64,000 nt of DNA, from assembly GCA_013288325.1 (NCBI GenBank), contig JABDCB010000001.1:1-64000 (forward strand). Reading direction: 5' to 3'. Below are positions 5,989 through 50,898 of the stretch, piece after piece. The stretch comes from Bacteroidota bacterium. Lineage in GTDB: Bacteria; Bacteroidota; Bacteroidia; Palsa-965. Numbering within the stretch: position 1 is the first letter of the stretch; each line of letters opens with the position of its first letter. Position numbers and translations under genes: made by a program. A model generated the notes under the pieces. That model saw nothing but the letters and a program-made list of their open reading frames with translations, made no database searches and was not told where the DNA came from.

Positions 5989-6250
5989 GATGCATTCATT
6001 GTTATTCTACTTAGCAAAACTATTTTAATTATACCGGAAGCGTATTAAGGGATAATCACCAAATCATGAAAAACAACAGTTTGTTTAGCAATTCATTATC
6101 ACAGTGAGGTCAAAACTATTCGTGTTAAGGCGTTTTACCTATGTTTTCTTTCAATAAGGAATATGATCTCTATCCTTGTGATGATCGCATACTTTCATTT
6201 TTCAATAGCCCCTGAAATATCAAATAAAATCCCACCTTTGTCAGGCAGGT

Positions 6251-19449: not shown

Positions 19450-19584
19450 AATAATTAGAGTAAAGCCGGTATCAAACAATCACTTTTATTGAAATGTACT
19501 AATGTTATGCAATATTAAAGCGTTTATAGCGCACTGAAAAAGAGATCAATCAGGTTTGATGTTGAGCTAAATCATTTTAACCTG

Positions 19585-19627
19585 TGATGCTGGTCATGAT
19601 ACCTTGCTGTTGGACTCGGTTTCTTTG
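19585..19627 (+). promoter_or_regulatory. FNR-like operator and -7 box of the tolC-macAB operon
   Basis: TGAT-GCTG-GTCA at 19585-19596 and TTTCTTTG (one mismatch to TAnnTTTG) at 19620-19627. The centres are 33.0 bp apart, the same geometry as eight other promoters in this window. The predicted transcription start near 19635 lies 40 bp before the first ATG. Confidence 0.65.
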
Positions 19628-25916: not shown

Positions 25917-25981
25917 TGATTTACATCACGTAAACATCTGACCATCCTCATAAACAGGCCAAGTTCACCTGCCTACATTTA
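25917..25981 (+). promoter_or_regulatory. Tandem FNR-like operators and -7 box of the mlaEFD-ccoI unit
   Basis: Sites TGAT-TTAC-ATCA (25917-25928) and TGAC-CATC-CTCA (25939-25950, one mismatch) are exactly 22 bp apart. The -7-like TACATTTA (25974-25981) is centred 33.0 bp after the second. The predicted start near 25989 gives a 19-nt leader before the ATG at 26008. The rest of the 311-bp gap (25697-25916) shows only a weak hairpin near 25710-25725 and no gene. Confidence 0.7.
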
Positions 25982-30983: not shown

Positions 30984-31048
30984 TGACGAAGGTCACCCTG
31001 GGCCTTGACGATGGTCATTAAGATTGTTTGGCAGGCCTCCTACTTTTG
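30984..31048 (+). promoter_or_regulatory. Tandem FNR-like operators and -7 box of the ccoS-ccoNOQP operon
   Basis: Two perfect palindromes, TGAC-GAAG-GTCA (30984-30995) and TGAC-GATG-GTCA (31006-31017), are exactly 22 bp apart, two helical turns. TACTTTTG (31041-31048) matches TAnnTTTG and is centred 33.0 bp from the proximal site. The predicted start near 31056 precedes the ccoS ATG at 31070 by about 14 nt. There is no TTTG -33 element, as expected for an activator-dependent promoter. Confidence 0.78.
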
Positions 31049-31069: not shown

Positions 31070-31273
31070 ATGAGTGCCCTGTTCATACTTCTTGGAGCTA
31101 GCTTAAGCATTGCTATCGGATTTCTGGTGGCATTTATCTGGTCGGTAAAAAGTGGTCAGTATGATGATGAATACACTCCTTCCGTTCGAATGTTGTTTGA
31201 TGATACAAAGCCAATTATAAATAATGTACAGTCGAAATTAACAGAGAAGAATACCGGTAAAAAAAGTAACTAA
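31070..31273 (+). CDS. ccoS: cbb3-type cytochrome oxidase assembly protein CcoS
   Basis: A 67-residue protein with one membrane segment (ALFILLGASLSIAIGFLVAFIW) and the family hallmark VKSGQYDDEYTPSVRMLFDD. CcoS is needed for haem and copper insertion into CcoN. I chose the ATG at 31070: a TTG 42 bp upstream would place translation ahead of the -7 box at 31041, and family members begin close to this ATG. It ends 17 bp before ccoNO. Confidence 0.9.
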   Translation: MSALFILLGASLSIAIGFLVAFIWSVKSGQYDDEYTPSVRMLFDDTKPIINNVQSKLTEKNTGKKSN

Positions 31274-31290: not shown

Positions 31291-33417
31291 ATGGAAGTCG
31301 AGAAATTTTCATACGACAACAAGATTGTCAAAATGTTTGCCTACGCAACAATGGTTTGGGGGCTGGTGGGTATGCTGGTGGGACTCTGGATAGCACTCGA
31401 GCTGGTGTTCCCATCCCTCAATCTGGGTATTCCGTTTACAACCTTTGGTCGGATCAGACCATTGCACACCAATGCGGTAATTTTTGCATTTGTAGGAAAT
31501 GGAATTTTTATGGGAGTATACTACTCTCTTCAGCGTTTGTGCAAAGCACGGATGTTCAGTGACAAGCTAAGCCTTATCCATTTTTGGGGCTGGCAGCTCA
31601 TTATTGTTTCGGCTGCCATTTCATTGCCAATGGGTTTTACCACCGGAAAAGAATATGCGGAGCTGGAGTGGCCCATTGATATAGCCATCACACTTATATG
31701 GGTTGTTTTCGGATGGAACATGTTCGGAACCATTATCAAGCGCAGAGAGCGCCATTTATATGTAGCTATCTGGTTCTATATTGCTACACTCATTACAGTT
31801 GCCATGCTGCACATTGTTAACAGCATGGAAGTTCCGGTGTCATTTATGAAAAGCTATAGCTGGTATGCAGGTGTTCAGGATGCTCTGGTACAGTGGTGGT
31901 ATGGACATAATGCGGTGGCATTTTTTCTTACCACCCCTTACCTCGGTCTCATGTATTATTTTATCCCCAAAGCGGCCAATCGTCCGGTGTATTCGTACCG
32001 GCTTTCCATCATTCACTTTTGGGCACTGATCTTTCTTTATATCTGGGCCGGCCCCCATCACCTTCTTTATACCGCCTTACCCGATTGGGCACAATCACTG
32101 GGTGTAGCCTTTTCCGTTATGCTGATAGCTCCTTCATGGGGAGGAATGATCAATGGTCTTCTTACGTTAAGAGGAGCATGGGATAAAGTACGGGAGGATG
32201 TGGTATTGAAGTTTATGGTGGTAGCGGTGACATGTTACGGTATGGCCACTTTCGAAGGACCTATGCTGTCATTGAAAAGTGTAAACATGTGGAGCCATTT
32301 TACCGATTGGACAATCGCACACGTACACGTTGGAGCACTGGGATGGAATGGATTCCTCACATTTGGCATCCTGTATTGGATTATCCCCAAAATGTTCCAG
32401 ATAGAGTTGTATTCAAAGAAACTTGCCAACTGGCACTTCTGGATCGGAACACTGGGTATCGTTTTCTATGTACTCCCTATGTATTGGGCCGGATTTGAAC
32501 AAAGCAGAATGTGGAGCAAGTTCACGGAGGAAGGGCAATTACAGTATCAGTTTTTGAATACGGTGGAACATATCCGTCCGTTGCAAATGTTACGTTCCAT
32601 TGGAGGAGCTCTATATCTTATCGGGGCCATCATGATGACGTATAACCTGATAAAGACAGTAAAGGCAGGATCGTTCCTCGCCAATGAAGAAGCAGAGGCC
32701 GCTCCGCTTGAGAAAATTTACAAAACACATACAGGCGAACACTGGCACAGGTGGATTGAACGTCGCCCTATACAGCTTTTAGTGCTTGCATTAATCGCTG
32801 TTGTAATCGGTGGGTTGATTGAGCTTATTCCGACATTCCTCATCCAGTCCAACGTTCCTACCATATCCAGTGTAAAGCCATACACTCCGCTGGAGTTGCA
32901 AGGTCGCGATATTTATCTCCGGGAAGGTTGTTATAACTGTCACTCCCAAATGGTAAGACCGTTGCGTCATGAGACAGCGCGTTATGGAGAATATTCCAAG
33001 GCAGGCGAATTCGTATATGACCATCCGTTTCAGTGGGGATCCAAACGAACCGGTCCTGATCTGGCACGTATTGGAGGGAAGTATCCAAACTCCTGGCATT
33101 ATAATCATATGTTGGAACCAACCTCCATGTCAGAACATTCCAGTATGCCTAATTATCCATGGCTATTGGAGAACAATCTGGATACCGCATCTACCGCTGC
33201 TAAAATCAGAGCGATGATAACACTGGGAGTTCCTTATCCAAAAGGATATGAAAAGCAAGCAAATACGGATCTCATAAAACAGGAAACGGATATTGCTGCA
33301 AATCTGAAAAATGACAAGATTCAAACTCCGCCGAATAAAGAAATTGTTGCATTGATTGCGTATTTGCAACGACTGGGAATGGACATTAAAGCCAAACATA
33401 ATTTCACCGAAAAATAA
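31291..33417 (+). CDS. ccoNO: Fused cbb3 cytochrome oxidase subunits I and II (CcoN-CcoO)
   Basis: A 708-residue fusion. Residues 1 to about 470 are CcoN, the 12-helix haem b/b3-CuB subunit, with GHNAVAFFLT, GPHHLLYTALPDW, HVHVGALGWNG histidine motifs. After a linker and one membrane segment, residues about 530-700 are CcoO, with the haem c motif CYNCHSQ and the ligand Met in SMPNYPWL. The complex reduces O2 to water with high affinity. The N-O fusion is frequent in Bacteroidota. Confidence 0.95.
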   Translation: MEVEKFSYDNKIVKMFAYATMVWGLVGMLVGLWIALELVFPSLNLGIPFTTFGRIRPLHTNAVIFAFVGNGIFMGVYYSLQRLCKARMFSDKLSLIHFWGWQLIIVSAAISLPMGFTTGKEYAELEWPIDIAITLIWVVFGWNMFGTIIKRRERHLYVAIWFYIATLITVAMLHIVNSMEVPVSFMKSYSWYAGVQDALVQWWYGHNAVAFFLTTPYLGLMYYFIPKAANRPVYSYRLSIIHFWALIFLYIWAGPHHLLYTALPDWAQSLGVAFSVMLIAPSWGGMINGLLTLRGAWDKVREDVVLKFMVVAVTCYGMATFEGPMLSLKSVNMWSHFTDWTIAHVHVGALGWNGFLTFGILYWIIPKMFQIELYSKKLANWHFWIGTLGIVFYVLPMYWAGFEQSRMWSKFTEEGQLQYQFLNTVEHIRPLQMLRSIGGALYLIGAIMMTYNLIKTVKAGSFLANEEAEAAPLEKIYKTHTGEHWHRWIERRPIQLLVLALIAVVIGGLIELIPTFLIQSNVPTISSVKPYTPLELQGRDIYLREGCYNCHSQMVRPLRHETARYGEYSKAGEFVYDHPFQWGSKRTGPDLARIGGKYPNSWHYNHMLEPTSMSEHSSMPNYPWLLENNLDTASTAAKIRAMITLGVPYPKGYEKQANTDLIKQETDIAANLKNDKIQTPPNKEIVALIAYLQRLGMDIKAKHNFTEK

Positions 33418-33615: not shown

Positions 33616-34773
33616 ATGAAACAGGCTCCAGGGTTTGCAAAAAGCAACACAAGAAATCGGATTTTAACGATAGCGCTGACATTCTTTTCCGTTGCGGCCC
33701 TCTCTGCACAGACACAAGGGCAATCAGGATCGAACGACAGCATATTGTCAAATGGACTGTTTGATGCCATGTTGGCCATGGTCATCTTACTACTGGTTAT
33801 TATCATGGTGCTGGCCGATGTACTGAAGAATGTAGCTGCGGGGATCAAACAAAAGGAATCAACGGGAAATGGAAAAGGTGCAGCTGTGGTGTTGCTGCTT
33901 TTGGCATTAGTGCCTCTTTCGGCACATGCGGAGGAAACAGCGAAAGTTGCAAGCACAGTGTCCGGTTATGGAGGTATGGCCCCTGTGGCGTTCTGGTTTA
34001 TGGTTTCGGCTATTGGCTTTGAATTAGTAATTCTTGCCTTTATTATAGTCATTATCCGTAATCTGCTTGGCGTTGAGGAGCGGAAAGATCTTATGTTTGC
34101 TCAAAAGAAAATTGTCCAGCCATCTTTACTGGAGCGGGTTAATGCCTCTGTATCATTGGAACAGGAAGCGGATATTATGCTGGATCATAACTATGACGGT
34201 ATTCGTGAACTGGATAATAATTTACCTCCCTGGTGGAAGTATGGATTTTATCTGACAATTGTATTTGCCATTGTTTATCTGACGCATTATCACATAACAA
34301 AGACAGGAAGTCTTCAAATTGAAGAATATAACAATGAATTGAAGCAAGCAGAAGTAGCGGCGGCGGAATATAGAAAAACATCTACGAATCTGGTGGATGA
34401 GGCAAATGTAACATTGTTAACAGATGCCGCAAGTCTGGCTGAAGGGAAACAAATATTCGAGACCAACTGTGTTGCCTGCCATGGCCCTGAAGGAGGTGGT
34501 GTTGTAGGCCCTAATCTGACAGATGATTACTGGCTGCATGGAGGATCTATCAAAGATGTATTTAAAACCATTAAATACGGGTACCCCGAAAAAGGAATGA
34601 TTGCATGGAAAGAAAATCTTTCACCTGCTCAGATTGCTCAGGTTGCTTCTTATATCAAATCGTTGAGAGGAACAAAACCTGCTAATCCGAAAGAGATGCA
34701 AGGAACATTGTATGTGGACGAAAGTGCTGCAGGAACAACTCCTTCGAAAGCGGACTCAACCCACGGCAAATAA
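33616..34773 (+). CDS. ccoP: cbb3 oxidase subunit III (CcoP), single haem c form
   Basis: A 385-residue protein. An N-terminal extension of about 110 residues has a leader-like segment and two hydrophobic stretches, ending in a second signal-like LVPLSAHAEE. Then come a membrane segment, the FixP_N region (ELDNNLPPWWKYGFYLTIVFA) and a cytochrome c domain with CVACHGPEGGG and the distal Met in KGMIAW. Only one CxxCH is present, whereas proteobacterial CcoP has two. It begins 2 bp after ccoQ. Confidence 0.9.
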   Translation: MKQAPGFAKSNTRNRILTIALTFFSVAALSAQTQGQSGSNDSILSNGLFDAMLAMVILLLVIIMVLADVLKNVAAGIKQKESTGNGKGAAVVLLLLALVPLSAHAEETAKVASTVSGYGGMAPVAFWFMVSAIGFELVILAFIIVIIRNLLGVEERKDLMFAQKKIVQPSLLERVNASVSLEQEADIMLDHNYDGIRELDNNLPPWWKYGFYLTIVFAIVYLTHYHITKTGSLQIEEYNNELKQAEVAAAEYRKTSTNLVDEANVTLLTDAASLAEGKQIFETNCVACHGPEGGGVVGPNLTDDYWLHGGSIKDVFKTIKYGYPEKGMIAWKENLSPAQIAQVASYIKSLRGTKPANPKEMQGTLYVDESAAGTTPSKADSTHGK

Positions 34774-34827
34774 GAAACGACCGGTTAATGATTGTTAAAA
34801 GAAAGCAAGCAAAGGCTTGCCACAGAA

Positions 34828-36216
34828 ATGGCACAAGAAGAATCCTTTCGGGATCATGTAGGTACCATCGACGAAAATGGGAAAAGGCGCTGGATATATG
34901 CTCAGAAGCCTAAGGGAAAGCTATTCAATTACCGCAAAATAGCCACTGCATTTTTTCTTACTGTTTTCTTCGGTCTGCCATTTATAAAAGTAAATCGGGA
35001 ACCCTTGTTTCTGCTCAACATTCTGGAGGGTAAGTTCATTGTTTTCGGGACCATATTCTGGCCTCAGGATTTTTTCCTGTTTGGATTGGGCATGATTATT
35101 TTTGTTCTTTTCATTGCTCTTTTTACCGTTGTTTTCGGTCGTGTGTTTTGCGGATGGGCCTGCCCACAGACCATATTTATGGAGATGGTGTTCCGTCGCA
35201 TTGAGTATTGGATAGAAGGTGATGCGAATGAGCAAAAGGCTCTGAATAATGGGCCATTGACTGAAAAGAAGATTCTGAAAAAAGCTGCTAAAAACATCCT
35301 TTTCTTCCTTGTTTCTTTTCTTATTGCAAATACACTCCTGTCGTATATTATTGGCGTTGATGAGTTATTTAAAATCATGTCGGAGCCTTTTGGCGCTCAT
35401 CTGGGCGGGTTCATTTCCCTGCTTATTTTTACCGGAGTGTTTTATGGAGTATATATCCGTTTTCGCGAGCAGGTATGTCTGGTTGTGTGTCCTTATGGTC
35501 GATTACAGGGTGTGTTGCTGGATAGAAACTCCATTGTGGTGGCATATGACTATTTAAGAGGAGAGAAAAGGGGCCATATTAAAAAGAATGAAAAAAGAGA
35601 GATCGGGGATTGTATTGATTGCAACCAATGTGTTAAAGTATGTCCTACCGGAATTGATATTCGCAATGGCACGCAGCTGGAATGTGTGAATTGTACCGCT
35701 TGTATTGATGCCTGCGATTTTATGATGGAGAAAGTGAATTTGCCCAAAGGCTTGATCCGCTATGCTTCTGAAAACGGAATTGCAAACAAGCAGAAGTTAA
35801 AAATAACCGGCAGAATGATTGCCTATTCTATTGTGCTCACCCTTCTGATAGGGGTGGAAGTGTTTTTGCTGATGGGCAGGAGCGATCTGGACATTACAAT
35901 TAACAGAGCCAGAGGTACCTTGTATCAGGAACAGCCCGGAAATAAAATAAGCAACTTATATACGATACAGTTACTGAATAAAACCCATGAGGATCTGCCG
36001 GTTGAATTAAGACTGGAATCGGAAACCGGCGAAATAAAAGTAATCGGAAAAAGCCTGATGATTGCCCATGAAAATTTTGAGCAAGGCTCCTTCTTCATCA
36101 CCGTCGATAAATCAACAATTAAAAACAGGAAAACACCCATGACCATTGGAGTTTATTCAGGGTCGAGGAAAATACAATCGGTCTCAGCCAATTTTCTCGG
36201 GCCTATCGTGTATTAG
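34828..36216 (+). CDS. ccoG: cbb3 oxidase accessory ferredoxin-like protein CcoG
   Basis: A 462-residue membrane protein with about five membrane segments. The conserved FGRVFCGWACPQTIFMEMVF and VCPYGRLQGVLLD cysteine motifs are present, and a two-cluster ferredoxin domain (CIDCNQCVKVCPTGIDIRNG, CVNCTACIDAC) near residues 250-300. A C-terminal Ig-like domain follows. CcoG is a cupric reductase that supplies Cu+ for oxidase assembly. The ATG at 34828 was preferred over a TTG 36 bp upstream. It belongs to the cco operon. Confidence 0.92.
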   Translation: MAQEESFRDHVGTIDENGKRRWIYAQKPKGKLFNYRKIATAFFLTVFFGLPFIKVNREPLFLLNILEGKFIVFGTIFWPQDFFLFGLGMIIFVLFIALFTVVFGRVFCGWACPQTIFMEMVFRRIEYWIEGDANEQKALNNGPLTEKKILKKAAKNILFFLVSFLIANTLLSYIIGVDELFKIMSEPFGAHLGGFISLLIFTGVFYGVYIRFREQVCLVVCPYGRLQGVLLDRNSIVVAYDYLRGEKRGHIKKNEKREIGDCIDCNQCVKVCPTGIDIRNGTQLECVNCTACIDACDFMMEKVNLPKGLIRYASENGIANKQKLKITGRMIAYSIVLTLLIGVEVFLLMGRSDLDITINRARGTLYQEQPGNKISNLYTIQLLNKTHEDLPVELRLESETGEIKVIGKSLMIAHENFEQGSFFITVDKSTIKNRKTPMTIGVYSGSRKIQSVSANFLGPIVY

Positions 36217-37414: not shown

Positions 37415-37479
37415 TGATGATTATCAGTATCCTTCCTGCGGTATATCATTTCCCCCGCCCTGTGGCTGCCCTAGCTTTG
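37415..37479 (+). promoter_or_regulatory. Tandem FNR-like operators and -7 box of the usp gene
   Basis: A consensus-like FNR site, TTGAT-GATT-ATCA, has its TGA/TCA core at 37415-37426. A degenerate site TGCG-GTAT-ATCA lies at 37437-37448, exactly 22 bp on. TAGCTTTG (37472-37479), a match to TAnnTTTG, is centred 33.0 bp after the second site. The ATG is at 37518. Confidence 0.68.
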
Positions 37480-37517
37480 TGTTGAATGATAATGTCATTA
37501 ACACAATACATCAAAAC

Positions 37518-38354
37518 ATGAAAAATATCCTTGCTCCCGTCGATTTTTCCAAAGAAGCTGCCCATGCAGCTCTTTATGCCGGCGCTCTGGCACAGCACCT
37601 GAACGCGCAGCTTACGTTGTTGTTCGTATTTCATATGCCCATCCCGATTTCCGAAGCGCCCTATCCCATTGATTTTGATACACTCGAAAAGGAGAACAGG
37701 AAGATGCTTAAGGATCTGGCTGAGGAAATTGAAAGTAAATATCAGGTAAAAGCCAAACAAATGATCATTGCAGGTTTTGCGGATGATGAAATATTGGATG
37801 CTACAGCAGGCAATGAATATGATCTGATTGTAATGGGCTCCAGAGGCAGCGGAAACAGGCTTAGCGAATGGATGGGAAGCACCACCACGGCAGTACTCAC
37901 CAAAAGTGTAGTTCCTGTGTTGGTTATTCCTGAGCATGTCACATTTTCCATACCCCGGGTTATTGCATTGGCCTGCGACTTTCAGAAAACAACAAAAGCA
38001 AGGGTCTTTGCTCCATTGTCAAGTTTAAGCCGGCAGTTTGAATCAACGGTTAAGATATTGAATGTGTCGGAAGAGAAAGAGCAAGAGGCGCTTCAGGATA
38101 AAAACAGTGAATTGGAAAAACAGCTTAACGGAATACCACATACCTATTGTTTCGAGTCGGCTATAGATGTGGAAAAGGGGATAAACAAATTTCTGAATGC
38201 ACATCCTGCTGATTGGATGGCTATTGTTGTTCATAAGCACAGCTTTATCAATCGTTTGTTTTTTGAAACATATGCAAAGCCTCTGGCCATGCATACCAGG
38301 ATTCCCCTGTTGGCTTTAAGCGAGGCTGTTTCAGTTCACGCTGTTAAGGCATAG
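37518..38354 (+). CDS. Tandem-domain universal stress protein
   Basis: A 278-residue cytoplasmic protein with two UspA domains. The first (residues 1-145) has the N-terminal strand MKNILAPVDFSKEA and a full nucleotide-binding motif, VMGSRGSGNRLSEWMGSTT. The second (about 150-278) is more degenerate. Tandem Usp proteins are typical of hypoxia/dormancy regulons, such as DosR targets in mycobacteria. The ATG at 37518 begins the conserved strand; an earlier in-frame start overlaps the -7 box and is unlikely. It has its own promoter after the cco operon. Confidence 0.9.
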   Translation: MKNILAPVDFSKEAAHAALYAGALAQHLNAQLTLLFVFHMPIPISEAPYPIDFDTLEKENRKMLKDLAEEIESKYQVKAKQMIIAGFADDEILDATAGNEYDLIVMGSRGSGNRLSEWMGSTTTAVLTKSVVPVLVIPEHVTFSIPRVIALACDFQKTTKARVFAPLSSLSRQFESTVKILNVSEEKEQEALQDKNSELEKQLNGIPHTYCFESAIDVEKGINKFLNAHPADWMAIVVHKHSFINRLFFETYAKPLAMHTRIPLLALSEAVSVHAVKA

Positions 38355-38423: not shown

Positions 38424-38466
38424 TGATAAATGTCATGAGACACAGGGCCCTGATTAGCTAGTTTTG
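38424..38466 (+). promoter_or_regulatory. FNR-like operator and -7 box of the MBL-rhodanese/PTPS/hemN operon
   Basis: TGAT-AAAT-GTCA at 38424-38435 and TAGTTTTG (match to TAnnTTTG) at 38459-38466, centres 33.0 bp apart. The predicted start near 38474 leaves a leader of about 94 nt before the ATG at 38568, longer than for the other units. Confidence 0.68.
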
Positions 38467-38567: not shown

Positions 38568-39944
38568 ATGTACATAAAGCAAATTTACACCTCCTGTCTC
38601 GCGCAGGCTTCTTACTATATCGAATCCAAAGGGTGTGCGGCAGTAATCGATCCCATACGGGATGTGGACGTATATCTGCAGCTTGCAAAGGAAAGGAAGG
38701 CAACCATTCAATATGTTCTGGAAACGCATTTTCATGCGGATTTTATTTCCGGTCACCTCGATCTGGCAAGAAAAACCGGAGCGGTGATCGTATTCGGACC
38801 CCAAGCCAAGCCTACTTACAAAGCAATGGTTGCCAGAGATGGAGACCGGATCTCATTAGGAGACATTAAGATTGAACTCATGCATACTCCCGGGCATACC
38901 ATTGAATCATCCTGTTTTCTGGCAATTGATGAGAACGAAAAACCATACGCTGTTTTTACCGGTGATACTTTGTTTGTGGGAGAAGTGGGGAGACCCGATC
39001 TGGGAAGCGGAAATCTGGATAAGAAAGAACTTGCCGGCCGTTTATATGATTCATTAAATAAGCATATCAAGGTACTGCCCGACGATGTAATTGTTTATCC
39101 CGGACATGGATCCGGATCGGCATGCGGTAAAAACCTCGGAGCGGAAACCTGGTCCACTATATGGGAACAGAAACTTAGTAATTATGCTTTGCAGAAAATG
39201 GACAAAGATGAATTTATAGCAAAAATCACGGAAGGGCTTCCAACGCCTCCGGCTTACTTTGCTCATGACGCCAGCGCAAACAGAAACGGGTATGAAAGCC
39301 TGGATACATTGCTGAAAAGAGGTACAAAAGAGCTGACTCATGAGGAGTTTAAATCAGAAACAAAAAACGGAGCTGTTATTCTGGATGTACGTAACTCCAC
39401 CGATTTCGGAATCGGATTTATCAAAGGTTCTATAAACATTGGTCTGGAAGGTGACTTTGCTGTATGGGCAGGAAACCTGATCCCGGCAGAAAAGGAATTG
39501 ATCCTGGTGGTACGTGATCATCAGGAAGAGGAAGCTGTAACCCGGTTGGCAAGAATTGGGTTTGATCATGTGAAAGGATTTTTGAGAGAGGATATCATTG
39601 GCTGGATCAATATGCAATATCCCGTTGATCATATACAAACAATCGCATCGTCACAGATAGATAAGTATTTAGAACAGGGATATATAATCCTGGATGTGAG
39701 AAAGACCGATGAAGTTTCGTCAGGCCGGATTAAGCATGCTATTAACATACCATTAAACGAGTTGGAAAAGGCACTGACCGGTTTTGCCCGCAAAGAAAAG
39801 TATCTTGTTTACTGTGCAGGTGGCTACCGGTCTATGATTGCGGCTTCCATTCTTAAAGCACATGGGTTCAGTGACGTAAAAAATATCAGAGGAGGTATGA
39901 CACAAATAAGAAAAGATACTCCTTCGCTAATTGAGAAAGAATGA
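38568..39944 (+). CDS. Metallo-beta-lactamase fold protein with two rhodanese domains (persulfide dioxygenase-like)
   Basis: A 458-residue cytoplasmic protein. Residues 1 to about 240 form an ETHE1/glyoxalase II-like domain with ETHFHADFISGH, FTGDTLFVGEVGRPDL and YPGHGSGSACG metal-binding motifs. A first rhodanese domain (about 255-350) lacks the catalytic cysteine (LVVRDHQEEEA at that position). The second (about 365-450) has the active-site loop YCAGGYRSM. Proteins of this design oxidise glutathione persulfide or move sulfane sulfur, so a role in sulfide detoxification is likely. The stop codon overlaps the next ATG by 4 bp. Confidence 0.9.
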   Translation: MYIKQIYTSCLAQASYYIESKGCAAVIDPIRDVDVYLQLAKERKATIQYVLETHFHADFISGHLDLARKTGAVIVFGPQAKPTYKAMVARDGDRISLGDIKIELMHTPGHTIESSCFLAIDENEKPYAVFTGDTLFVGEVGRPDLGSGNLDKKELAGRLYDSLNKHIKVLPDDVIVYPGHGSGSACGKNLGAETWSTIWEQKLSNYALQKMDKDEFIAKITEGLPTPPAYFAHDASANRNGYESLDTLLKRGTKELTHEEFKSETKNGAVILDVRNSTDFGIGFIKGSINIGLEGDFAVWAGNLIPAEKELILVVRDHQEEEAVTRLARIGFDHVKGFLREDIIGWINMQYPVDHIQTIASSQIDKYLEQGYIILDVRKTDEVSSGRIKHAINIPLNELEKALTGFARKEKYLVYCAGGYRSMIAASILKAHGFSDVKNIRGGMTQIRKDTPSLIEKE

Positions 39945-40405
39945 AACGGATACGGATTACAAAAGAGTTTACATTCGAAATGGCACATGCTTTAAGAAAT
40001 CATGATGGCCCTTGTAAGAATATACACGGACATTCCTATTCACTTGCGGTTACGGTTATGGGCACACCTGTTGCGGAAGAAGGAAATCCTAAGCAAGGAA
40101 TGGTGTGGGATTTTTCAGAACTGAAGCACCTGGTAAACCATGAAATTATAAGCAGGCTTGATCATGCCCTTGTTTTGAAAATGGAGGATACGGTAGCCGT
40201 TATAGAACAGGGTTCTTTGCCCGTAGGGAAATTGGTGATGGTGCCCTATCAACCTACATGCGAAAACCTGTTGCTCGATTTCGCAGAACGTTTGCTGCAT
40301 TGTCTGCCTGAAAAAGTGAAGCTCGTCCGTCTGCTCCTTCGCGAAACACCCAGCTCTTATGCCGAATGGCTTGCGGAGGAAAATGAATTCCCCGGAGCAC
40401 TGTAA
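39941..40405 (+). CDS. 6-carboxytetrahydropterin synthase/PTPS family protein
   Basis: A 154-residue protein with the zinc histidines in FEMAHAL and NIHGHSYSL, the catalytic Cys in GPCKN and the downstream DFSELKHLVNHEI/LDHALVL motif of the QueD/PTPS family. QueD converts dihydroneopterin triphosphate to carboxytetrahydropterin in queuosine synthesis. No other que gene is near, and its place between a sulfur-handling protein and hemN in a stress-type operon leaves open another pterin role. Confidence 0.85.
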   Translation: MKRIRITKEFTFEMAHALRNHDGPCKNIHGHSYSLAVTVMGTPVAEEGNPKQGMVWDFSELKHLVNHEIISRLDHALVLKMEDTVAVIEQGSLPVGKLVMVPYQPTCENLLLDFAERLLHCLPEKVKLVRLLLRETPSSYAEWLAEENEFPGAL

Positions 40406-40430
40406 CTGTATAACCTTGAAAAGAACAGAA

Positions 40431-41792
40431 ATGATTCCATCCGCTCTGTATAATAAGTATAATGTCCCGGGTCCCCGCTACACCAGTTATCCTACCGTTC
40501 CTTTTTGGGAAACTACTCCATCTGCCCATGAATGGGAGATGCATGCAAAGGAAACGTTTCAAAAAACAAATTCAAACGAAGGGATAAGCATCTATATCCA
40601 TCTGCCGTTTTGTGAAAGCTTGTGTACCTATTGCGGATGCAATACCAGGATCACTGTAAACCATGCCGTAGAAGAAATTTATATCAACGCATTGCTTAAG
40701 GAGTGGAGATTGTATTTAGATGTATTTGAAACCGCTCCCCGGATCAGAGAGCTTCACCTGGGAGGAGGAACCCCCACCTTTTTCAAAGCAGAAAATCTGC
40801 GCAAACTGATTACTGGTATTACCTCCAATGCTTTGGTATGTGAAGATGCCGCGTTCAGTTTTGAAGCACACCCTAATAATACAACGGTAGAGCATTTAAC
40901 GGTTTTGTATGAGTTAGGATTCAAACGCATCAGTATTGGGGTGCAGGATCTTAATCCGGAAGTGCAGCAAATTGTAAATAGGATTCAGCCTTTTGAAGCG
41001 GTGCAAACCTTAACGGAAGAATCCCGAAAGGCAGGATTTGATTCGGTTAATTTCGACCTGATATATGGACTCCCTCTGCAAACAAAAGAAAGCATCGTAA
41101 ATACGATGGAGAAAGTAATTGAACTGAGACCTGATCGTATTGCCTTTTACAGTTATGCGCATGTGCCCTGGATAAAGCCCGGGCAGCGAAAATTTACAGA
41201 AGCTGATTTACCCAAAGACGAGGAGAAGCTGGAACTCTATAAAACAGGAAGGGCCCTGTTGGAAAAAACAGGGTACAAGGATATAGGGATGGATCATTTT
41301 GCGCTGGAAACAGACGAGCTCTATCTATCTACCATATCCAAACGTCTGCACCGGAATTTTATGGGTTATACCCCTTTCTCCACCAGCTTGCTGATTGGGC
41401 TGGGAGCTTCTTCCATCAGCGATACCTGGACGGCATTTGTTCAGAATGAAAAGAAGGTGGAAGATTATTATAAGAGAATCAAAGAGGGAAGGATTCCGTT
41501 TTTCAGGGGACATCTGCTTACTGGCGAAGACCAAATTCTAAGAAGACATATTCTGAATATCATGTGTTACATGGAAACATCCTGGAAGGAGAAGGAGATG
41601 CAATGTCCTTATATACAACAGGCTGTTGAAGCATTGGCCGATCTGGAAAAGGACGGTCTGGTAATCATTCAGGAAACCGGTCTGCGTGTATCTTCAGCGG
41701 GGCTTCCCTTTATCCGTAATATCTGTATGGCCTTTGATGCCAGACTCAAGGCTAAAGAACAAAGTGCTGTTAAGTTCAGCAAAACGATTTAG
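40431..41792 (+). CDS. hemN: Oxygen-independent coproporphyrinogen III oxidase
   Basis: A 453-residue radical SAM enzyme that oxidatively decarboxylates coproporphyrinogen III without O2. It has the HemN N-terminus YNVPGPRYTSYPTVPFW, the 4Fe-4S motif HLPFCESLCTYCGCN, GGGTPTFF, NFDLIYGLPLQT and the HemN C-terminal domain with LHRNFMGYT. Start is the ATG at 40431; earlier in-frame codons overlap the PTPS gene. It provides haem under low oxygen, fitting its operator and the adjacent cbb3 cluster. It converges with a minus-strand operon across 14 bp. Confidence 0.95.
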   Translation: MIPSALYNKYNVPGPRYTSYPTVPFWETTPSAHEWEMHAKETFQKTNSNEGISIYIHLPFCESLCTYCGCNTRITVNHAVEEIYINALLKEWRLYLDVFETAPRIRELHLGGGTPTFFKAENLRKLITGITSNALVCEDAAFSFEAHPNNTTVEHLTVLYELGFKRISIGVQDLNPEVQQIVNRIQPFEAVQTLTEESRKAGFDSVNFDLIYGLPLQTKESIVNTMEKVIELRPDRIAFYSYAHVPWIKPGQRKFTEADLPKDEEKLELYKTGRALLEKTGYKDIGMDHFALETDELYLSTISKRLHRNFMGYTPFSTSLLIGLGASSISDTWTAFVQNEKKVEDYYKRIKEGRIPFFRGHLLTGEDQILRRHILNIMCYMETSWKEKEMQCPYIQQAVEALADLEKDGLVIIQETGLRVSSAGLPFIRNICMAFDARLKAKEQSAVKFSKTI

Positions 41793-42683: not shown

Positions 42684-44126
42684 TCATTTAGATTCGGAAG
42701 GAGAAGGTACTAATTTATGTCCAGCTTCAAGAAGCTTTGGAGTCAGATTTATAAGTTCAAATTTTTCATTTATAATAGGAGTAACGGCATTCCATCCCAA
42801 AACATCATGAATTTTCAATTCGAGAGCAGAAGAGGCTTCCGCTTCGCCATGGACTATAAAGATGCGTTCAGGTTTGTTATGAATCGAACTGATCCATGCA
42901 ATCAATTCGGCCTGGTCGGCATGTGCTGACAACGAAAGAATCTCTTTTACTTCAGCTTTTACCTTATGGTAAGCGCCAAATAATTTTATTTCATGAACAC
43001 CTGATTTCAATGCCTTGCCTCTTGTTCCGGCAGCCTGATAGCCCACTAATAAAACAGTGTTCTGATGATGACCCAGATAACTGTGTAAGTAATGCAATAC
43101 ACGGCCCCCGGTAAGCATACCACTTGCGGCGATAACAATCTTAGGGCCGGGTTTGGCAATCACCTTAAATGTATCTTTCAAATGCTTTACATGGATAATA
43201 TCATTGTCTATCTGTTTGCACTGGAGGGAGGTGAGTTTATGCCAGCCCGGGCTGTTTTCATATACCTCCGTAGCTTCAATACCCATGGGGGTATCGAGAT
43301 AAACGGGGATGTCAGGAATCATATTTTTTTTCTTCATTCCGTTAATAAGAAGCATCATATCCTGTGCACGCCCTACTGCAAAACTTGGAATTAGCAGACA
43401 ACCTTTTTTCTGGATCACCTGATGTACAATCTCAGAAAACTCTTTTTCGGCAGAAACCGCAGGATGTAGACGATCTCCATATGTGGACTCAATAATCAAG
43501 ACATCTGCTTTTTCCGGTGTAAGAGGAGGAGCAAGGGAATACGATTTTTGTCTTCCCAGATCGCCCGAAAAAACAATTCTTTTTTCATAACAATCCATTT
43601 CTACAAAGGCCGAACCGAGGATATGCCCGTTTTTTCTGAACCTGAAACGAATGTGTGCCGATAAGTCAATCCACTCCTCATGGGGACAGGATTGCATCAG
43701 GTCGAATGTTTTCTTTACATCATCCTGAGTATATAATGGTAAAGCAGGCTTATGACGGCTATATCCCATTTTGTTGGCATGATCGGCATCCTCTTCCTGC
43801 AGCTTGGCGCTATCTAGTAAGATGATTTTGGTTAATGACAGGGTAGGAGGAGTAAGGTATATTTTGCCCCGGAATCCATTCTTTACCAATACCGGAATAT
43901 ATCCGGTATGATCCAGATGGGCATGCGTGATAATAAGTGAATTAATAGAAGAGGCATCGATACCAAGCGGCTCCCTGTTTAACTGACGAAGATTTTTCAG
44001 TCCCTGAAATAATCCGCAGTCAACAAGAACAGTATGTTCGGGTGTTTGGAGCAGATGTTTTGAACCTGTAACCATGCCGGCAGCTCCCAGAAACTGCAGA
44101 CTTACTTTTTGTGGCATTGTTTCCAT
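42684..44126 (-). CDS. Beta-CASP metallo-beta-lactamase RNase-like protein
   Basis: A 480-residue cytoplasmic nuclease-type protein. The MBL metal motifs are THAHLDHTGYIP, GHILGSAFVEMD and FSGDLGR. A beta-CASP domain has YGDRLHP, PSFAVGRAQ and AASGMLTGGRVLHYL, and the C-terminal LSAHADQAELIAWI histidine motif closes the active site (RMMBL). It resembles the YsH1/CPSF-like archaeal and bacterial exoribonucleases, so RNA processing or decay under stress is likely. First gene of a minus-strand operon with YtxH and holin-like genes. Confidence 0.88.
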   Translation of the reverse strand: METMPQKVSLQFLGAAGMVTGSKHLLQTPEHTVLVDCGLFQGLKNLRQLNREPLGIDASSINSLIITHAHLDHTGYIPVLVKNGFRGKIYLTPPTLSLTKIILLDSAKLQEEDADHANKMGYSRHKPALPLYTQDDVKKTFDLMQSCPHEEWIDLSAHIRFRFRKNGHILGSAFVEMDCYEKRIVFSGDLGRQKSYSLAPPLTPEKADVLIIESTYGDRLHPAVSAEKEFSEIVHQVIQKKGCLLIPSFAVGRAQDMMLLINGMKKKNMIPDIPVYLDTPMGIEATEVYENSPGWHKLTSLQCKQIDNDIIHVKHLKDTFKVIAKPGPKIVIAASGMLTGGRVLHYLHSYLGHHQNTVLLVGYQAAGTRGKALKSGVHEIKLFGAYHKVKAEVKEILSLSAHADQAELIAWISSIHNKPERIFIVHGEAEASSALELKIHDVLGWNAVTPIINEKFELINLTPKLLEAGHKLVPSPSESK

Positions 44127-44143
44127 AACTAAGATTATTTAAA

Positions 44144-44186
44144 CAAATGTCCATGTAAAACGAGTTCGCTTTTATGATTTGCGTCA
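44144..44186 (-). promoter_or_regulatory. FNR-like operator and -7 box of the beta-CASP operon
   Basis: TGAT-TTGC-GTCA at 44175-44186 (TGAC-GCAA-ATCA on the minus strand) and minus-strand GACATTTG at 44144-44151; centres 33.0 bp apart. The ATG at 44126 follows the box by 17 bp. A degenerate extra site TGGC-TTAT-ATCA lies 21 bp further upstream (44196-44207). Confidence 0.65.
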
Positions 44187-44217
44187 GCTTTTCGGTGGCT
44201 TATATCACAGAAAGGAG

Positions 44218-44260
44218 TGATGGAAATCAGATGTTTAAAGCAAAATATCACGGAAATTTG
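44218..44260 (+). promoter_or_regulatory. FNR-like operator and -7 box of the PAS kinase/REC-Crp operon
   Basis: TGAT-GGAA-ATCA at 44218-44229 and GAAATTTG at 44253-44260, centres 33.0 bp apart. This promoter diverges from that of the beta-CASP operon in the same 201-bp gap, and both boxes share the variant (G)AnnTTTG. If the encoded REC-Crp protein binds here, the operon is autoregulated. The leader to the ATG at 44328 is about 60 nt. Confidence 0.65.
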
Positions 44261-44327: not shown

Positions 44328-45542
44328 ATGATAGGAAAACTGGAAGGTGAGGATATATTCAGAATATTATTTGAATCAGCGGGAGAAGGTCTTATTCTGT
44401 CGGATGAAAGGGGCACTTTATTGGTGATGAATCCCCGGATACAGGAGATGTTTGGATATGAGAATGACGAGCTGATAGGTAAGAAAGTAGAAGTACTGAT
44501 TCCGGAATCACGCCGGGATCAACATATAGACCAACGGAATGGGTATGTGGCCCATCCTAAGAAACGTCCGATGGGTAAGGGAATTGATTTGTCGGGGAGA
44601 CGCAAGGATGGAAGTGTTTTCCCGATTGAAATAAGTCTCAACTATTTTTATTCAGGAGGCGAAATGGTAGTGATGGGTCTGATTACCGATGTTACGGAAA
44701 GAAAGAGGATAGAAAAAAAGTTTCAGCAGCTGAATATTGATCTGGAGCAACGCGTGGATGATCGGACACAAATGCTGGCGGGAGCCATCAAAGAGCTTGA
44801 ATATTCAAATCAAAGTCTGGAGAAAGCGGAAGAAGATTTGAGAAGAGCGCTGGAAACCGAGAAGGAACTGAGCGAGTTAAAATCACGCTTTGTATCCACG
44901 GCGTCACATGAATTCAGAACTCCCCTGGCCACTATTCTATCATCGGTTTCATTGATTGCGAAATACAATAAACCGGAAGATGAGGAAAAGAGAGCCAAGC
45001 ACATAGAGCGGATTAAGTCGAGCGTAGATAATCTGCGCGACATTCTGAATGATTTCCTTTCCCTGAGCCGTCTGGAGGAAGGAAAAGTGGGAACCATCCG
45101 GGTACAATTTGATATTATTCCATTTTGCGAAGCAATCAGGGAGGAAATGCAGTTTCATACCAAACCCGGACAGGAAATACGATACGAGCACCGGGGGGTA
45201 ACCGAAATTACACAGGACAATCAGTTGTTAAAAAGCGTATTGGTTAATCTGCTTTCCAATGCGATTAAATTTTCGGAAGAGGGCAAGCCGATCTGTATGA
45301 AATCGGATTGTATAGGTGAAGAACTTAGGATACGAGTAATTGACCACGGGATCGGGATGCCGGTGGAAGATCAGAAACATTTATTTGAACGTTTTTTTCG
45401 CGCGGAAAACGCTGCATCTATTCAAGGTACCGGCTTAGGTTTGAATATAGTATTGAAGTATGTGGAGCTCATGGGAGGGAAAATCTCTTTCCAAAGCGAA
45501 CTGGGTAAGGGATCGGTTTTTCAGATAACGTTTCCATTGTAG
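44328..45542 (+). CDS. PAS-domain sensor histidine kinase (FixL-like arrangement)
   Basis: A 404-residue soluble kinase. A PAS domain (about residues 8-130) has MFGYENDELIG, IPESRRDQHIDQ and GRRKDGSVFPIEISL. A coiled coil, the His box VSTASHEFRTPLATIL (near residue 190) and an HATPase domain (LVNLLSNAIKFS, DHGIGMP, FERFFRAE, GTGLGLNI) follow. In a gap-free alignment by eye with the FixL haem PAS domain, His66 falls at the FixL haem-ligand position, but the FixL distal Arg is not conserved, so haem binding is only possible. It lies 18 bp before the response-regulator gene and is the likely cognate kinase. Confidence 0.9.
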   Translation: MIGKLEGEDIFRILFESAGEGLILSDERGTLLVMNPRIQEMFGYENDELIGKKVEVLIPESRRDQHIDQRNGYVAHPKKRPMGKGIDLSGRRKDGSVFPIEISLNYFYSGGEMVVMGLITDVTERKRIEKKFQQLNIDLEQRVDDRTQMLAGAIKELEYSNQSLEKAEEDLRRALETEKELSELKSRFVSTASHEFRTPLATILSSVSLIAKYNKPEDEEKRAKHIERIKSSVDNLRDILNDFLSLSRLEEGKVGTIRVQFDIIPFCEAIREEMQFHTKPGQEIRYEHRGVTEITQDNQLLKSVLVNLLSNAIKFSEEGKPICMKSDCIGEELRIRVIDHGIGMPVEDQKHLFERFFRAENAASIQGTGLGLNIVLKYVELMGGKISFQSELGKGSVFQITFPL

Positions 45543-45560
45543 TATAAAAAACAAAAAAGC

Positions 45561-46628
45561 ATGAATATGAACAAAACAATCTTGCTGATTGAGGATAATG
45601 CCTCTATGAGGGATAATACCAGAGAACTCCTGGAGCTTTCGGCATACAAAGTATATACTGCAGAAAACGGTAAGATTGGGGTTGAGCTTGCAAAAAAAGT
45701 GCATCCCGATCTGATCTTATGCGATATCAATATGCCCGAACTGGATGGGTATGGGGTACTTCATATTTTAGGAAAAAGTGAAGACACAGCCGGCATCCCT
45801 TTTGTTTTCCTGACTGCAAGAGTGGAAAGAGTTGATTTCAGAAAAGGGATGACCCTGGGTGCTGATGACTACTTAACCAAACCGTTTGATGATGTTGAGT
45901 TGCTGGATGTGGTGGAGATGAGATTAAGAAAAGCGGATTTGTTTAAAAAAGAGATTGAGAAAGCCGATACAGGTTTTGATCGGTTCATCAATGACGCAAA
46001 AGAAACCAATATGCTTAGTTCGTTTTCGAACGAACGGAGTTTAAAGAAACATAAAAAGAAAGAATCCATATTTACCGAAGGCAACTATCCGGTTGGGTTA
46101 TATCTCATCAGCAAAGGAAAGGTAAAGACCTACAAAACCAATGAAGCGGGTAAGGAGCTTATTACCGGAATTTATAAAGAAGGAGATTTTGTAGGGTATG
46201 TTCCATTGCTGGAAGATACAACCTATACAGAATCGGCAGAGGCTTTGGAGGAGGCGGAGATTTACATGATACCCAAACAGGATTTCTTTTCCCTTATTTA
46301 CAATAGCAGGGAAGTGTCGCGCAAGTTTATCCAGCTTCTTTCCAATAACCTTTCCGAAAGGGAAGACAGGCTTATTAAACTGGCTTATAACTCGGTCAGG
46401 AAGCGTGTTGCCGAATCCCTCGTTATGTTACAGCATCAATACCAACAGGATAAATCAGGCAAAACGTCCATTCCTATTTCCAGAGAAGATTTAGCAGGAA
46501 TTGTTGGAACAGCAACAGAATCGGTTATCAGAACATTGGGCGATTTTAAAGAAGAAGGGTTAATAGAAATAAAGAAGGGAGATATTTTCGTACTTAGCCT
46601 GGAAAAACTGAAGGAGCTTAAAAACTAA
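45561..46628 (+). CDS. Response regulator with Crp/Fnr-type output (REC-cNBD-HTH)
   Basis: A 355-residue transcription factor. The receiver (residues 4-125) has Asp55 in LILCDINMPELDG and the LTKPFD lysine. A cyclic-nucleotide-binding-like fold (about 150-270) starts with KKHKKKESIFTEGNYPVGLYLI, and a Crp-type winged helix is at about 275-355. The recognition helix TATESVIRTLGDF keeps the Glu320 and Arg324 that correspond to the base-contacting Glu and Arg of Crp/Fnr. No N-terminal Fnr cysteine cluster is present. It is the natural candidate to bind the TGA(C/T)-N4-(G/A)TCA sites found across this window. A terminator follows. Confidence 0.92.
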   Translation: MNMNKTILLIEDNASMRDNTRELLELSAYKVYTAENGKIGVELAKKVHPDLILCDINMPELDGYGVLHILGKSEDTAGIPFVFLTARVERVDFRKGMTLGADDYLTKPFDDVELLDVVEMRLRKADLFKKEIEKADTGFDRFINDAKETNMLSSFSNERSLKKHKKKESIFTEGNYPVGLYLISKGKVKTYKTNEAGKELITGIYKEGDFVGYVPLLEDTTYTESAEALEEAEIYMIPKQDFFSLIYNSREVSRKFIQLLSNNLSEREDRLIKLAYNSVRKRVAESLVMLQHQYQQDKSGKTSIPISREDLAGIVGTATESVIRTLGDFKEEGLIEIKKGDIFVLSLEKLKELKN

Positions 46629-46854: not shown

Positions 46855-46936
46855 CCCATGGACTCTTACACGCAATCCATTTGCACATATTTTATCTGTA
46901 TGCGTAAAAGGAGCGTTTCATTATGTGCTTGCCCCT

Positions 46937-47272
46937 ATTTTATGTGCTCATAAAAGGTATGCATTCGTGCTTGAATCTATTTTATGTGCTCATAAAACGT
47001 ATTTATTCATTCTTATATCTATTTTATGTGCTCATAAAATGTATTTATTTACGCTTGAATCTATTTTATGTACTCATAAAAAGTATTTATTCATGCTTAT
47101 ACCTGTTTTATGTGCTCATAAAATGTATTTATTCATGCTTGTACTCATTTTATGTGCTCATAAAACGTATTTATTCATCCTTGCACCTATTTTATGTGCT
47201 CATAAAATATATTTATTCATGCTTGTACTCATTTTATGTGCTCATAAAGTGTTCCCGTTCACGCATGCAGTG
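46937..47272. repeat. 42-bp tandem repeat array with an 18-bp palindrome in each unit
   Basis: Eight units start at 46937, 46979, 47021, 47063, 47105, 47147, 47189 and 47231, all exactly 42 bp long. Each opens with TTTTATG-TGCT-CATAAAA, a 7-bp inverted repeat around 4 bp, then a more variable GTATTTATTCATGCTT-like half. One unit has a TGTACT centre and the last has CATAAAG. Degenerate units continue on both sides (about 46890-46936 and 47273-47315, the latter still in 42-bp register). Two forward frames are open through it only because 42 is a multiple of 3. The gap from 46855 to 47529 holds no other recognised gene. Confidence 0.9.
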
Positions 47273-47529
47273 TCTCCCTTCACTCATAAAGTGTTTCCGT
47301 CTATTCATGCAAGGACCCCAAGCATCTTGGCCGAATATCCTATTGTTGATGCAGGATATAAGCTTACGTTTTAAGCAGGTCCATATGTGTTTGGAGTACG
47401 TCCGTTCAACTTTAGACCACCTCCGAGTCTTTAATATTAAGTTAACATTGGGTTTTCACCTTTTCCTGTTATAAAAATTGTCGTATCTTGATAACTTGAT
47501 TTTCTTTATTCAACAGCATCAATCCTTTT

Positions 47530-50000: not shown

Positions 50001-50048
50001 GTACTAAAGTTACTAAAAATGGAGACCTGCTCAATATCAGGAAGAAGA

Positions 50049-50091
50049 TGATGTAAATCATTGATGAAGGGTGAGAGGCAATCTACTTTTA
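50049..50091 (+). promoter_or_regulatory. FNR-like operator and -7 box of the SDR gene
   Basis: TGAT-GTAA-ATCA at 50049-50060 and TACTTTTA (one mismatch to TAnnTTTG) at 50084-50091, centres 33.0 bp apart. A degenerate site TGCT-CAAT-ATCA lies 21 bp upstream (50028-50039). The ATG is at 50146. Confidence 0.65.
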
Positions 50092-50145: not shown

Positions 50146-50898
50146 ATGAACAGATTAAAAGACAAAGTAGTTATTATTACCGGCGGAGCCGGTGGTATGG
50201 GAAAAGCAGAAGCTATATTATTTGCGCAGGAAGGCGCGCATGTGCTGGTAACCGACAACCAGTTTCAAAAAATGGATGAATGGGTACAGAAAGCATCGGA
50301 TGAAAATTTAAAAATTGCATGTATTGCACATGATGTAACTTCGGAAGATGACTGGAAAAAGGTGGCCGAGAAAGCGATAGAGCTGTACGGAAAAATAAGC
50401 ATTCTGGTAAACAATGCTGGGGTGTATCCGGCCGGAAAAACGACCGATAATACGGAGAAGAAAGAATGGGAAAAAGTAATCGCCATTAATCTGACCGGAC
50501 CTTTTCTGGGTGCCAGGGCTGTGATTCCATACATGAAGAAAAACAAACAGGGTGTAATTGTTAATGTTTCTTCCATTGCCGGAATGGTAGGCGGGAATGG
50601 CCCTGCATACAGCGCTTCCAAAGGCGGGCTGAGATTGCTTACCAAAGATCTGGCTCTGGAATATGCCAAAGACAATATCCGTGTCAACTCCCTTCATCCC
50701 GGAGGTGTACTTACACCTATGACGGAAGGAATGTTAAACATGCCCGAAGCAAAGGAAATGATAAAAGGTATGTGTCCTCAGGGGCGTATGGCCGAGCCCA
50801 TGGAACTGGCTTATGCTGCTTTGTACCTGGCTTCGCCCGAGTCATCATTCATGACCGGATCGGAACTGGTAGTGGATGGAGGAATGATTGCACGCTGA
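50146..50898 (+). CDS. Short-chain dehydrogenase/reductase
   Basis: A 250-residue classical SDR. It has the NAD(P) motif TGGAGGMGKAE (a TGxxxGxG type), the structural motif VNNAG, catalytic Ser in VNVSSIAGMVG, the YSASKGG Tyr-Lys pair and the HPGGVLTPM segment. It should be a soluble oxidoreductase acting on an alcohol, ketone or 3-oxoacyl substrate; the acidic VTDNQ after the second strand suggests NAD(H). It converges with the TonB receptor gene across 2 bp. Confidence 0.9.
   Translation: MNRLKDKVVIITGGAGGMGKAEAILFAQEGAHVLVTDNQFQKMDEWVQKASDENLKIACIAHDVTSEDDWKKVAEKAIELYGKISILVNNAGVYPAGKTTDNTEKKEWEKVIAINLTGPFLGARAVIPYMKKNKQGVIVNVSSIAGMVGGNGPAYSASKGGLRLLTKDLALEYAKDNIRVNSLHPGGVLTPMTEGMLNMPEAKEMIKGMCPQGRMAEPMELAYAALYLASPESSFMTGSELVVDGGMIAR

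Follow-up and report, generated by a model that had tools for sequence, protein, structure and literature searches.

The window, the whole stretch of 64,000 nucleotides that was analysed, comes from a 60%-complete Bacteroidia genome and contains a two-gene pair for a predicted two-component system. The second gene encodes a response regulator in which a receiver domain is fused to a Crp-type module (REC-Crp).

44328..45542, + strand: soluble PAS histidine kinase, 404 aa (ORF and domain matches)
45561..46628, + strand: REC-Crp response regulator, 355 aa (ORF and domain matches)

The kinase is composed of a PAS domain (residues 14-121, containing His66), a HisKA domain (185-252, with His194) and a HATPase domain (297-404), and no hydrophobic or membrane segment was found in it. 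REC-Crp contains a REC domain (7-118, with Asp55; PF00072, 3e-26) followed by a Crp half (PF00027, 8e-21; PF13545, 2.5e-17) made up of cNMP_binding (162-246) and HTH_Crp_2 (281-353). The intergenic gap is 18 bp, and the soluble PAS kinase 5' of a REC-Crp gene that had been predicted is present, with matching domains in both ORFs. The kinase adjoining REC-Crp is a recurrent feature: it was recognised at 27 of 30 REC-Crp loci, the remaining three being cut off or lacking a recognised H-box. A scan of species genomes gave 13 full-length REC-Crp matches among those listed, all from Bacteroidota, and 12 of these 13 loci have an adjoining kinase.

An alignment of 25 orthologues was used to assess critical residues. 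Asp12, Asp55 and Lys107 of the receiver are invariant, providing the acidic pair, phospho-acceptor Asp and Lys of a response regulator. Glu320 and Arg324, proposed originally as Crp/Fnr-type readers of the operator, both fall in the recognition helix and are also invariant. An FNR-type Cys cluster is absent from REC-Crp, whose sole Cys (Cys54) lies within REC, and no Arg is found in the stretch corresponding to the cAMP-binding Arg82 of CRP, either in the window protein or in the other aligned REC-Crp sequences. The helix-turn-helix is of the Crp type and not the LuxR/GerE type that defines FixJ. Because of this different HTH, the lack of cysteines and the non-conserved cAMP Arg, REC-Crp is not a FixJ, FNR or CRP. 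The REC-Crp domain order is already known from response-regulator censuses; no such census was found in the open-access literature. A full-length fused REC-Crp was not among the solved structures listed, and the predicted structure of the fusion has a low pTM (0.53).

Tandem operators and promoters in the window

The operator consists of tandem TGAN6TCA boxes with centres 22 bp apart, and a sigma-A −7 box of the Bacteroidota type (TAnnTTTG) begins exactly 29.5 bp past the centre of the proximal box. Six such promoters are found on the + strand of the window, including those of ccoS-ccoNO, the Usp gene and the kinase/REC-Crp pair, and a TAnnTTTG-like element occupies the same offset in all six window arrays. 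The features are as follows.

19541..19596, unstranded: three-box array between divergent genes (boxes 19541, 19563, 19585), with −7 elements TTTCTTTG at 19620 (+) and TAATATTG on the − strand
25917..25950, + strand: tandem operator, −7 element TACATTTA at 25974, ahead of mlaE (26008)
30984..31017, + strand: tandem operator of ccoS-ccoNO (boxes 30984, 31006)
31041..31048, + strand: −7 element TACTTTTG of the ccoS-ccoNO promoter
37415..37448, + strand: tandem operator, −7 element TAGCTTTG at 37472, upstream of the Usp gene (37515-38354)
38424..38435, + strand: single good box (distal partner 4/6), −7 element TAGTTTTG at 38459, upstream of 38568-41792 (MBL/rhodanese, PTPS, hemN)
42684..44126, − strand: divergent beta-CASP/MBL RNase-like gene, sharing the three-box operator with the kinase pair
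44175..44229, unstranded: three-box operator array between divergent genes (boxes 44175-44186, 44196-44207 (5/6) and 44218-44229; spacings 21 and 22)
44253..44260, + strand: −7 element GAAATTTG of the kinase/REC-Crp promoter, 29.5 bp from the proximal box centre
50028..50060, + strand: tandem operator with spacing 21, −7 element TACTTTTA at 50084, upstream of an SDR gene (50146-50898)

In a scan of the window, exact TGAN6TCA pairs were nearly confined to a spacing of 22 (19563/19585, 25917/25939 and 30984/31006), the only spacing with three perfect 6/6 pairs, with near-exact companions at 19541, 37415/37437, 44196/44218 (plus 44175) and 50028/50049. The reversed-sequence control gave 0 matches in the window. 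The original prediction had named individual operators at 31006 and 44218. Both exist, but each is only part of a larger structure: 31006 is the proximal half of the 22-bp tandem 30984/31006, and 44218 is the last of three boxes, each with a TAnnTTTG-like element at the same offset. The tandem supersedes a single TTGAYN4RTCAA site as the operator.

Two arrays contain three boxes with −7-like elements on either side, as if the middle box served two divergent promoters. At the kinase pair, the − strand has the −7-like sequence GACATTTG correctly spaced from box 44175 and directed toward gene 42684-44126, which scores below the cut-offs of the aCPSF1 and type VII Cas14 models. A further candidate promoter on the − strand (4810-6153; boxes 5/6 and 5/6, with TAGTTTTG) lies ahead of gene 4810-5988. 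Downstream of REC-Crp, positions 46926-47290 hold a tandem array with a period of 42 and about 8 copies, each containing the palindromic core TTTTATGTGCTCATAAAA; this array overlaps only spurious repetitive ORFs.

Spacing and promoter register across genomes

The exact tandem occurs 8 times in the whole window genome versus 0 times for the reversed pattern, and 25 versus 2 times when one mismatch is allowed. Among 127 pairs listed from 30 REC-Crp genomes, 27 have a spacing of 22, with other spacings represented about 3 times each; the REC-Crp-negative genomes in the spacing test were chosen for many tandems and hence are a weak control. The boxes show a preference for A or C before TGA and for T or G after TCA.

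The −7 element was also located relative to the boxes. Among 204 strand-instances of tandem sites drawn from the window genome and its relatives, 86 match it at 5/6 or better at an offset of 23 past the proximal box, against 0-6 at any other offset. The larger loci behind some of these statistics were picked for holding tandem sites; the −7 offset was no selection criterion. A composite pattern of tandem plus −7 box, with at most one mismatch, gave 1052 matches versus 2 in the reversed control across 396 related genomes that are at least 90% complete (the window's own excepted); these composite counts and the per-genome counts of the tandem pattern are unselected. The next ATG follows the −7 box at a median distance of 33 bp. 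The tandem sites checked in three genomes lacking REC-Crp (G182, G178 and, for the most part, G275) were rejected as composite promoters, having no good −7 box at the right offset. The tandem counts of G280 were discarded as a repeat artefact (135 versus 68 in the reversed control), as this genome carries a repeat family that mimics the tandem pattern.

Start-site mapping in Flavobacterium psychrophilum places the −7 box at −12 to −5 (PMC9723704). With that placement, the tandem boxes would centre at about −41.5 and −63.5. Crp-family activators contact RNA polymerase from this −41.5/−63.5 register. At the level of sequence register, with start sites borrowed from flavobacteria, the centres thus coincide with those of class II and class I activation (near −41.5 and −61.5 to −63.5). 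Crp-family proteins can also repress, and the tandem boxes might serve for repression or be repeats that lie near promoters by chance. We regard this explanation as very improbable: the register fixed in 86 strand-instances is that of an activator and, together with the 1052 composite matches versus 2 in the control, excludes chance.

Predicted target genes

A cbb3 oxidase cluster with genes for a CcoI-like ATPase, ccoS, ccoNO, ccoP and ccoG lies 5' of the regulatory pair, as does hemN.

31070..31273, + strand: ccoS (TIGR00847)
31291..33417, + strand: ccoNO (a fusion of cbb3 oxidase subunits I and II); ccoP (33616-34773) and ccoG (34792-36216) come next

The first gene behind the composite promoters is ccoS at 13 sampled loci, and cbb3 is the commonest target seen. 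Other first genes encode the kinase of the pair, Usp, a hemerythrin-type Ric/YtfE repair protein, cytochromes c, aa3 oxidase subunit II (coxB), a P-type ATPase, Fe-S subunits, a phasin, YceI and DoxX. The targets at two loci (L077 and L113) were rejected as nosZ, being Fe-S subunits close to DsrO/NrfC. In Arcticibacter, Mucilaginibacter and Sphingobacterium, REC-Crp is followed by a gene that on visual inspection resembles D-lactate dehydrogenase. The predicted targets belong to respiration at low oxygen, fermentation and the response to NO/Fe-S stress. In F. psychrophilum, cbb3 and haem genes are induced when oxygen is limiting, and no regulator of this response was found named in the available portion of that report (PMC9723704).

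Also located behind a composite promoter is a small conserved protein of about 125 aa with the pattern MKI.I.D.RKI..IQEEFN..FPFLKIEF. It is encoded at four loci (L010:2641-3030, L019:2635-3024, L024:2682-3047 and L116:9019-9396), directly 3' of REC-Crp in the first three, and the L010 copy has no Pfam match.

The PAS domain of the kinase

By both sequence and fold, the closest PDB matches of the PAS domain are FixL and then the haem PAS domains of FG214 and DosP, ahead of flavin LOV domains; the PAS model is nearest to the FixL haem domains. His66 resides on the F-alpha helix (helix 60-75) and aligns without gaps with the haem-ligand His of FixL, bearing out the by-eye match of the original prediction. 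This residue is retained in 16 of 16 aligned kinases and in all FixL-like PAS domains of further partner kinases. The distal Arg of FixL (Arg220 in BjFixL) was also correctly reported as missing, its position being occupied by Ile86. Seven further Bacteroidota partner kinases have Arg at this position, and because these relatives keep it, only some lineages are without it. An N-terminal REC takes the place of PAS in four partner kinases of relatives, and two others, known from partial sequences, have a different PAS domain.

A survey of PAS domains attributes haem binding in the FixL/DosP cluster primarily to the F-alpha His; about 40% of FixL-cluster PAS domains lack this residue, and sequence does not give the identity of the ligand (PMC10468136). 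Distal ligation can differ, as in the haem PAS FG214 (PMC13060918). From its fold and His66, the window PAS domain probably binds haem. That oxygen, rather than NO or redox, is the signal we consider somewhat less assured, if still the better supported choice. REC-Crp may be the right regulator even if its signal is not oxygen sensed through haem, with the PAS domain binding another ligand or the kinase reporting redox or NO. The missing distal Arg, the flavins bound by related PAS clusters, the Ric/YtfE targets (which suggest NO or Fe-S damage) and the partner kinases with REC where PAS would be all lean that way. Since the nearest solved PAS domains are haem proteins, the F-alpha His is conserved and the commonest target seen is cbb3, we find this alternative doubtful, and haem-based oxygen sensing is preferred.

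Which protein reads the operators

Using a threshold of E<=1e-60, REC-Crp was found in 199 of the 396 genomes. These contain 864 composite matches (mean 4.3) versus 188 (mean 0.95) in the 197 genomes without REC-Crp, in agreement with the predicted co-occurrence of pair and operators. The difference is significant (Mann-Whitney, 4e-24), with a P value that overstates independence because the genomes are related. The contrast within genera is more telling. In genus g23, genomes with REC-Crp have 3-50 composite matches and those without have 0, 0, 0, 2 and 1; in genus g18, the numbers are 4-18 with REC-Crp and 1 without. The largest predicted regulon by far belongs to a g23 genome with two REC-Crp copies (G203; about 40 exact tandem sites and 50 composite matches). 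The cleanest operator assignment is provided by the 100% complete genome G318, in which REC-Crp is the only HTH_Crp_2 protein found. Each of its four tandem sites is accompanied by the −7 box; one of them precedes the PAS kinase gene of the pair, which at the sequence level is autoregulation.

The association is not exclusive. The composite operator is absent from 34 of the 199 REC-Crp-positive genomes, and 75 of the 197 negative genomes carry at least one, indicating that other Crp proteins read it too. The assignment of the operators to this pair consequently holds in part, and in most of the sampled exceptions a stand-alone Crp whose recognition helix is almost identical can account for the operators. 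We sampled ten REC-Crp-negative genomes rich in tandems. In eight, the best HTH_Crp_2 protein has cysteines like those of FNR (CxxC, a third Cys about 8-24 residues further along, and one near position 110), and in seven of those eight the recognition helix is nearly that of REC-Crp (GTATETVIR versus GTATESVIR). The best HTH_Crp_2 protein of G275 has an FNR-like helix (GTSRETVTR), and the sites checked there mostly lack the −7 box. G008 has a cysteine-poor stand-alone Crp, and no Crp match was found in G329. It thus seems from these helices that the same promoter code is read by Crp proteins with different inputs.

The tandem operators could then belong mainly to stand-alone Crp/Fnr proteins, either FNR-type Fe-S or cysteine-poor, with REC-Crp as one of several readers or acting upstream of the reader as FixJ does of FixK. 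Besides the near-identical helices (mostly accompanied by CxxC...C plus C~110) in some operator-bearing genomes without REC-Crp, this proposal draws on composite promoters ahead of an FNR-type paralogue in the window genome (contig C74) and of stand-alone Crp genes elsewhere. We consider it unlikely: G318 has four operators with −7 boxes yet no other HTH_Crp_2 protein, within genera the operators largely vanish with REC-Crp though stand-alone Crp remains (for example in G178 and G182), and the FNR-type ETVSR helix of the C74 paralogue does not fit boxes without the outer T. REC-Crp itself has Ile323 at the position of FNR Ser212, and its boxes lack the outer T of FNR; this substitution fits box flanks that are unlike those of FNR (TTGAT...) and CRP (TGTGA...). 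REC-Crp therefore remains our preferred reader.

The window genome encodes two further Crp proteins. An FNR-type paralogue (C9, C12, C18 and C111; helix ETVSR) is present on contig C74 of the window genome (G000) and at loci L042 and L122, and at all three it has a promoter of its own with both the −7 box and the tandem operator. A cascade from REC-Crp to the FNR-type paralogue is possible.

A proposed low-oxygen system and its implications

We propose, with a probability of roughly 0.7 on the genomic evidence presented here, that the pair is a two-component low-oxygen system in which REC-Crp activates target promoters through tandem boxes. The soluble kinase would sense low oxygen through its FixL-type PAS domain, probably by means of haem on His66, and would phosphorylate Asp55 of REC-Crp. 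The phosphorylated Crp half would then bind the tandem (A/C)TGA(C/T)N4(A/G)TCA(T/G) boxes as two cooperating dimers on the same face of the DNA. From about −63.5 and −41.5, these dimers would activate, not repress, the sigma-A promoters (TAnnTTTG) of ccoS-ccoNO, Usp, the pair's own operon and other low-oxygen genes.

A broader proposal, for which we judge the odds to be even, is a Bacteroidota-wide low-oxygen promoter code (−63.5/−41.5, TAnnTTTG) with interchangeable readers that have nearly the same helix. Operator, geometry and targets would be kept while the input is swapped, from REC-Crp with a FixL-type haem PAS kinase to an FNR-type Fe-S Crp. We found no description of this REC-Crp or of the 22-bp tandem in the open-access literature, subscription journals being outside the scope of the search. 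As far as shown, the 22-bp tandem with its strict −41.5/−63.5 register, the regulon and the FixL-type PAS pairing across Bacteroidota are new relative to that literature; the swap with FNR-type readers is possibly so as well.

The induction of cbb3 at low oxygen is poorly known in Bacteroidota, and the pair provides a named candidate regulator. The promoter pattern can be searched with almost no background, and from it a regulon can be predicted across hundreds of genomes. The system also provides a natural experiment in the exchange of sensor input for a single regulon, as well as a well-defined example of a promoter with two Crp-type sites spaced 22 bp apart.

Comparison with known systems

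HcpR2 of Bacteroides is likewise a Crp/Fnr family protein from Bacteroidota, but it recognises a different box (GTAACn4GTTAC), targets hcp and has no REC domain (PMC1274295). E. coli CRP shares the sensor and HTH folds and the class I and II positions with REC-Crp; it differs in its cAMP-binding Arg, which REC-Crp does not conserve, in its box flanks and in the absence of a fused REC. Boxes with a TGA core, a class II site at −41.5 and low-oxygen targets are common to FNR/FnrN and the system described here. In contrast to FNR/FnrN, REC-Crp has a receiver and no Fe-S cysteines, its box is without the outer T of TTGATN4ATCAA, and its operator is a regular 22-bp tandem. The PAS domain has the fold of the haem PAS domains of FixL, DosP and FG214 (1d06, 1v9y and 10jx; PMC13060918, PMC10468136), to which it is related by the gapless alignment to FixL and the F-alpha His66. 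Unlike in FixL, the haem is putative and the distal Arg is Ile in the window protein, although several relatives keep the Arg.

A close parallel is the FixL-FixJ-FixK system of alphaproteobacteria (PMC4999443), in which a FixL-like PAS kinase also adjoins its regulator, the targets include the cbb3 operon and other low-oxygen genes, the operator is of the Crp type and autoregulation occurs. FixJ has a LuxR-type HTH and activates fixK, whereas in REC-Crp the receiver and the Crp module are joined directly in one protein, and the operator is a tandem at a sigma-A promoter in another phylum. The suggestion that FixL-FixJ-FixK is compressed into two proteins is supported, as FixLJ-FixK-like logic, by the low-oxygen targets and by the autoregulation predicted from the pair's own promoter.
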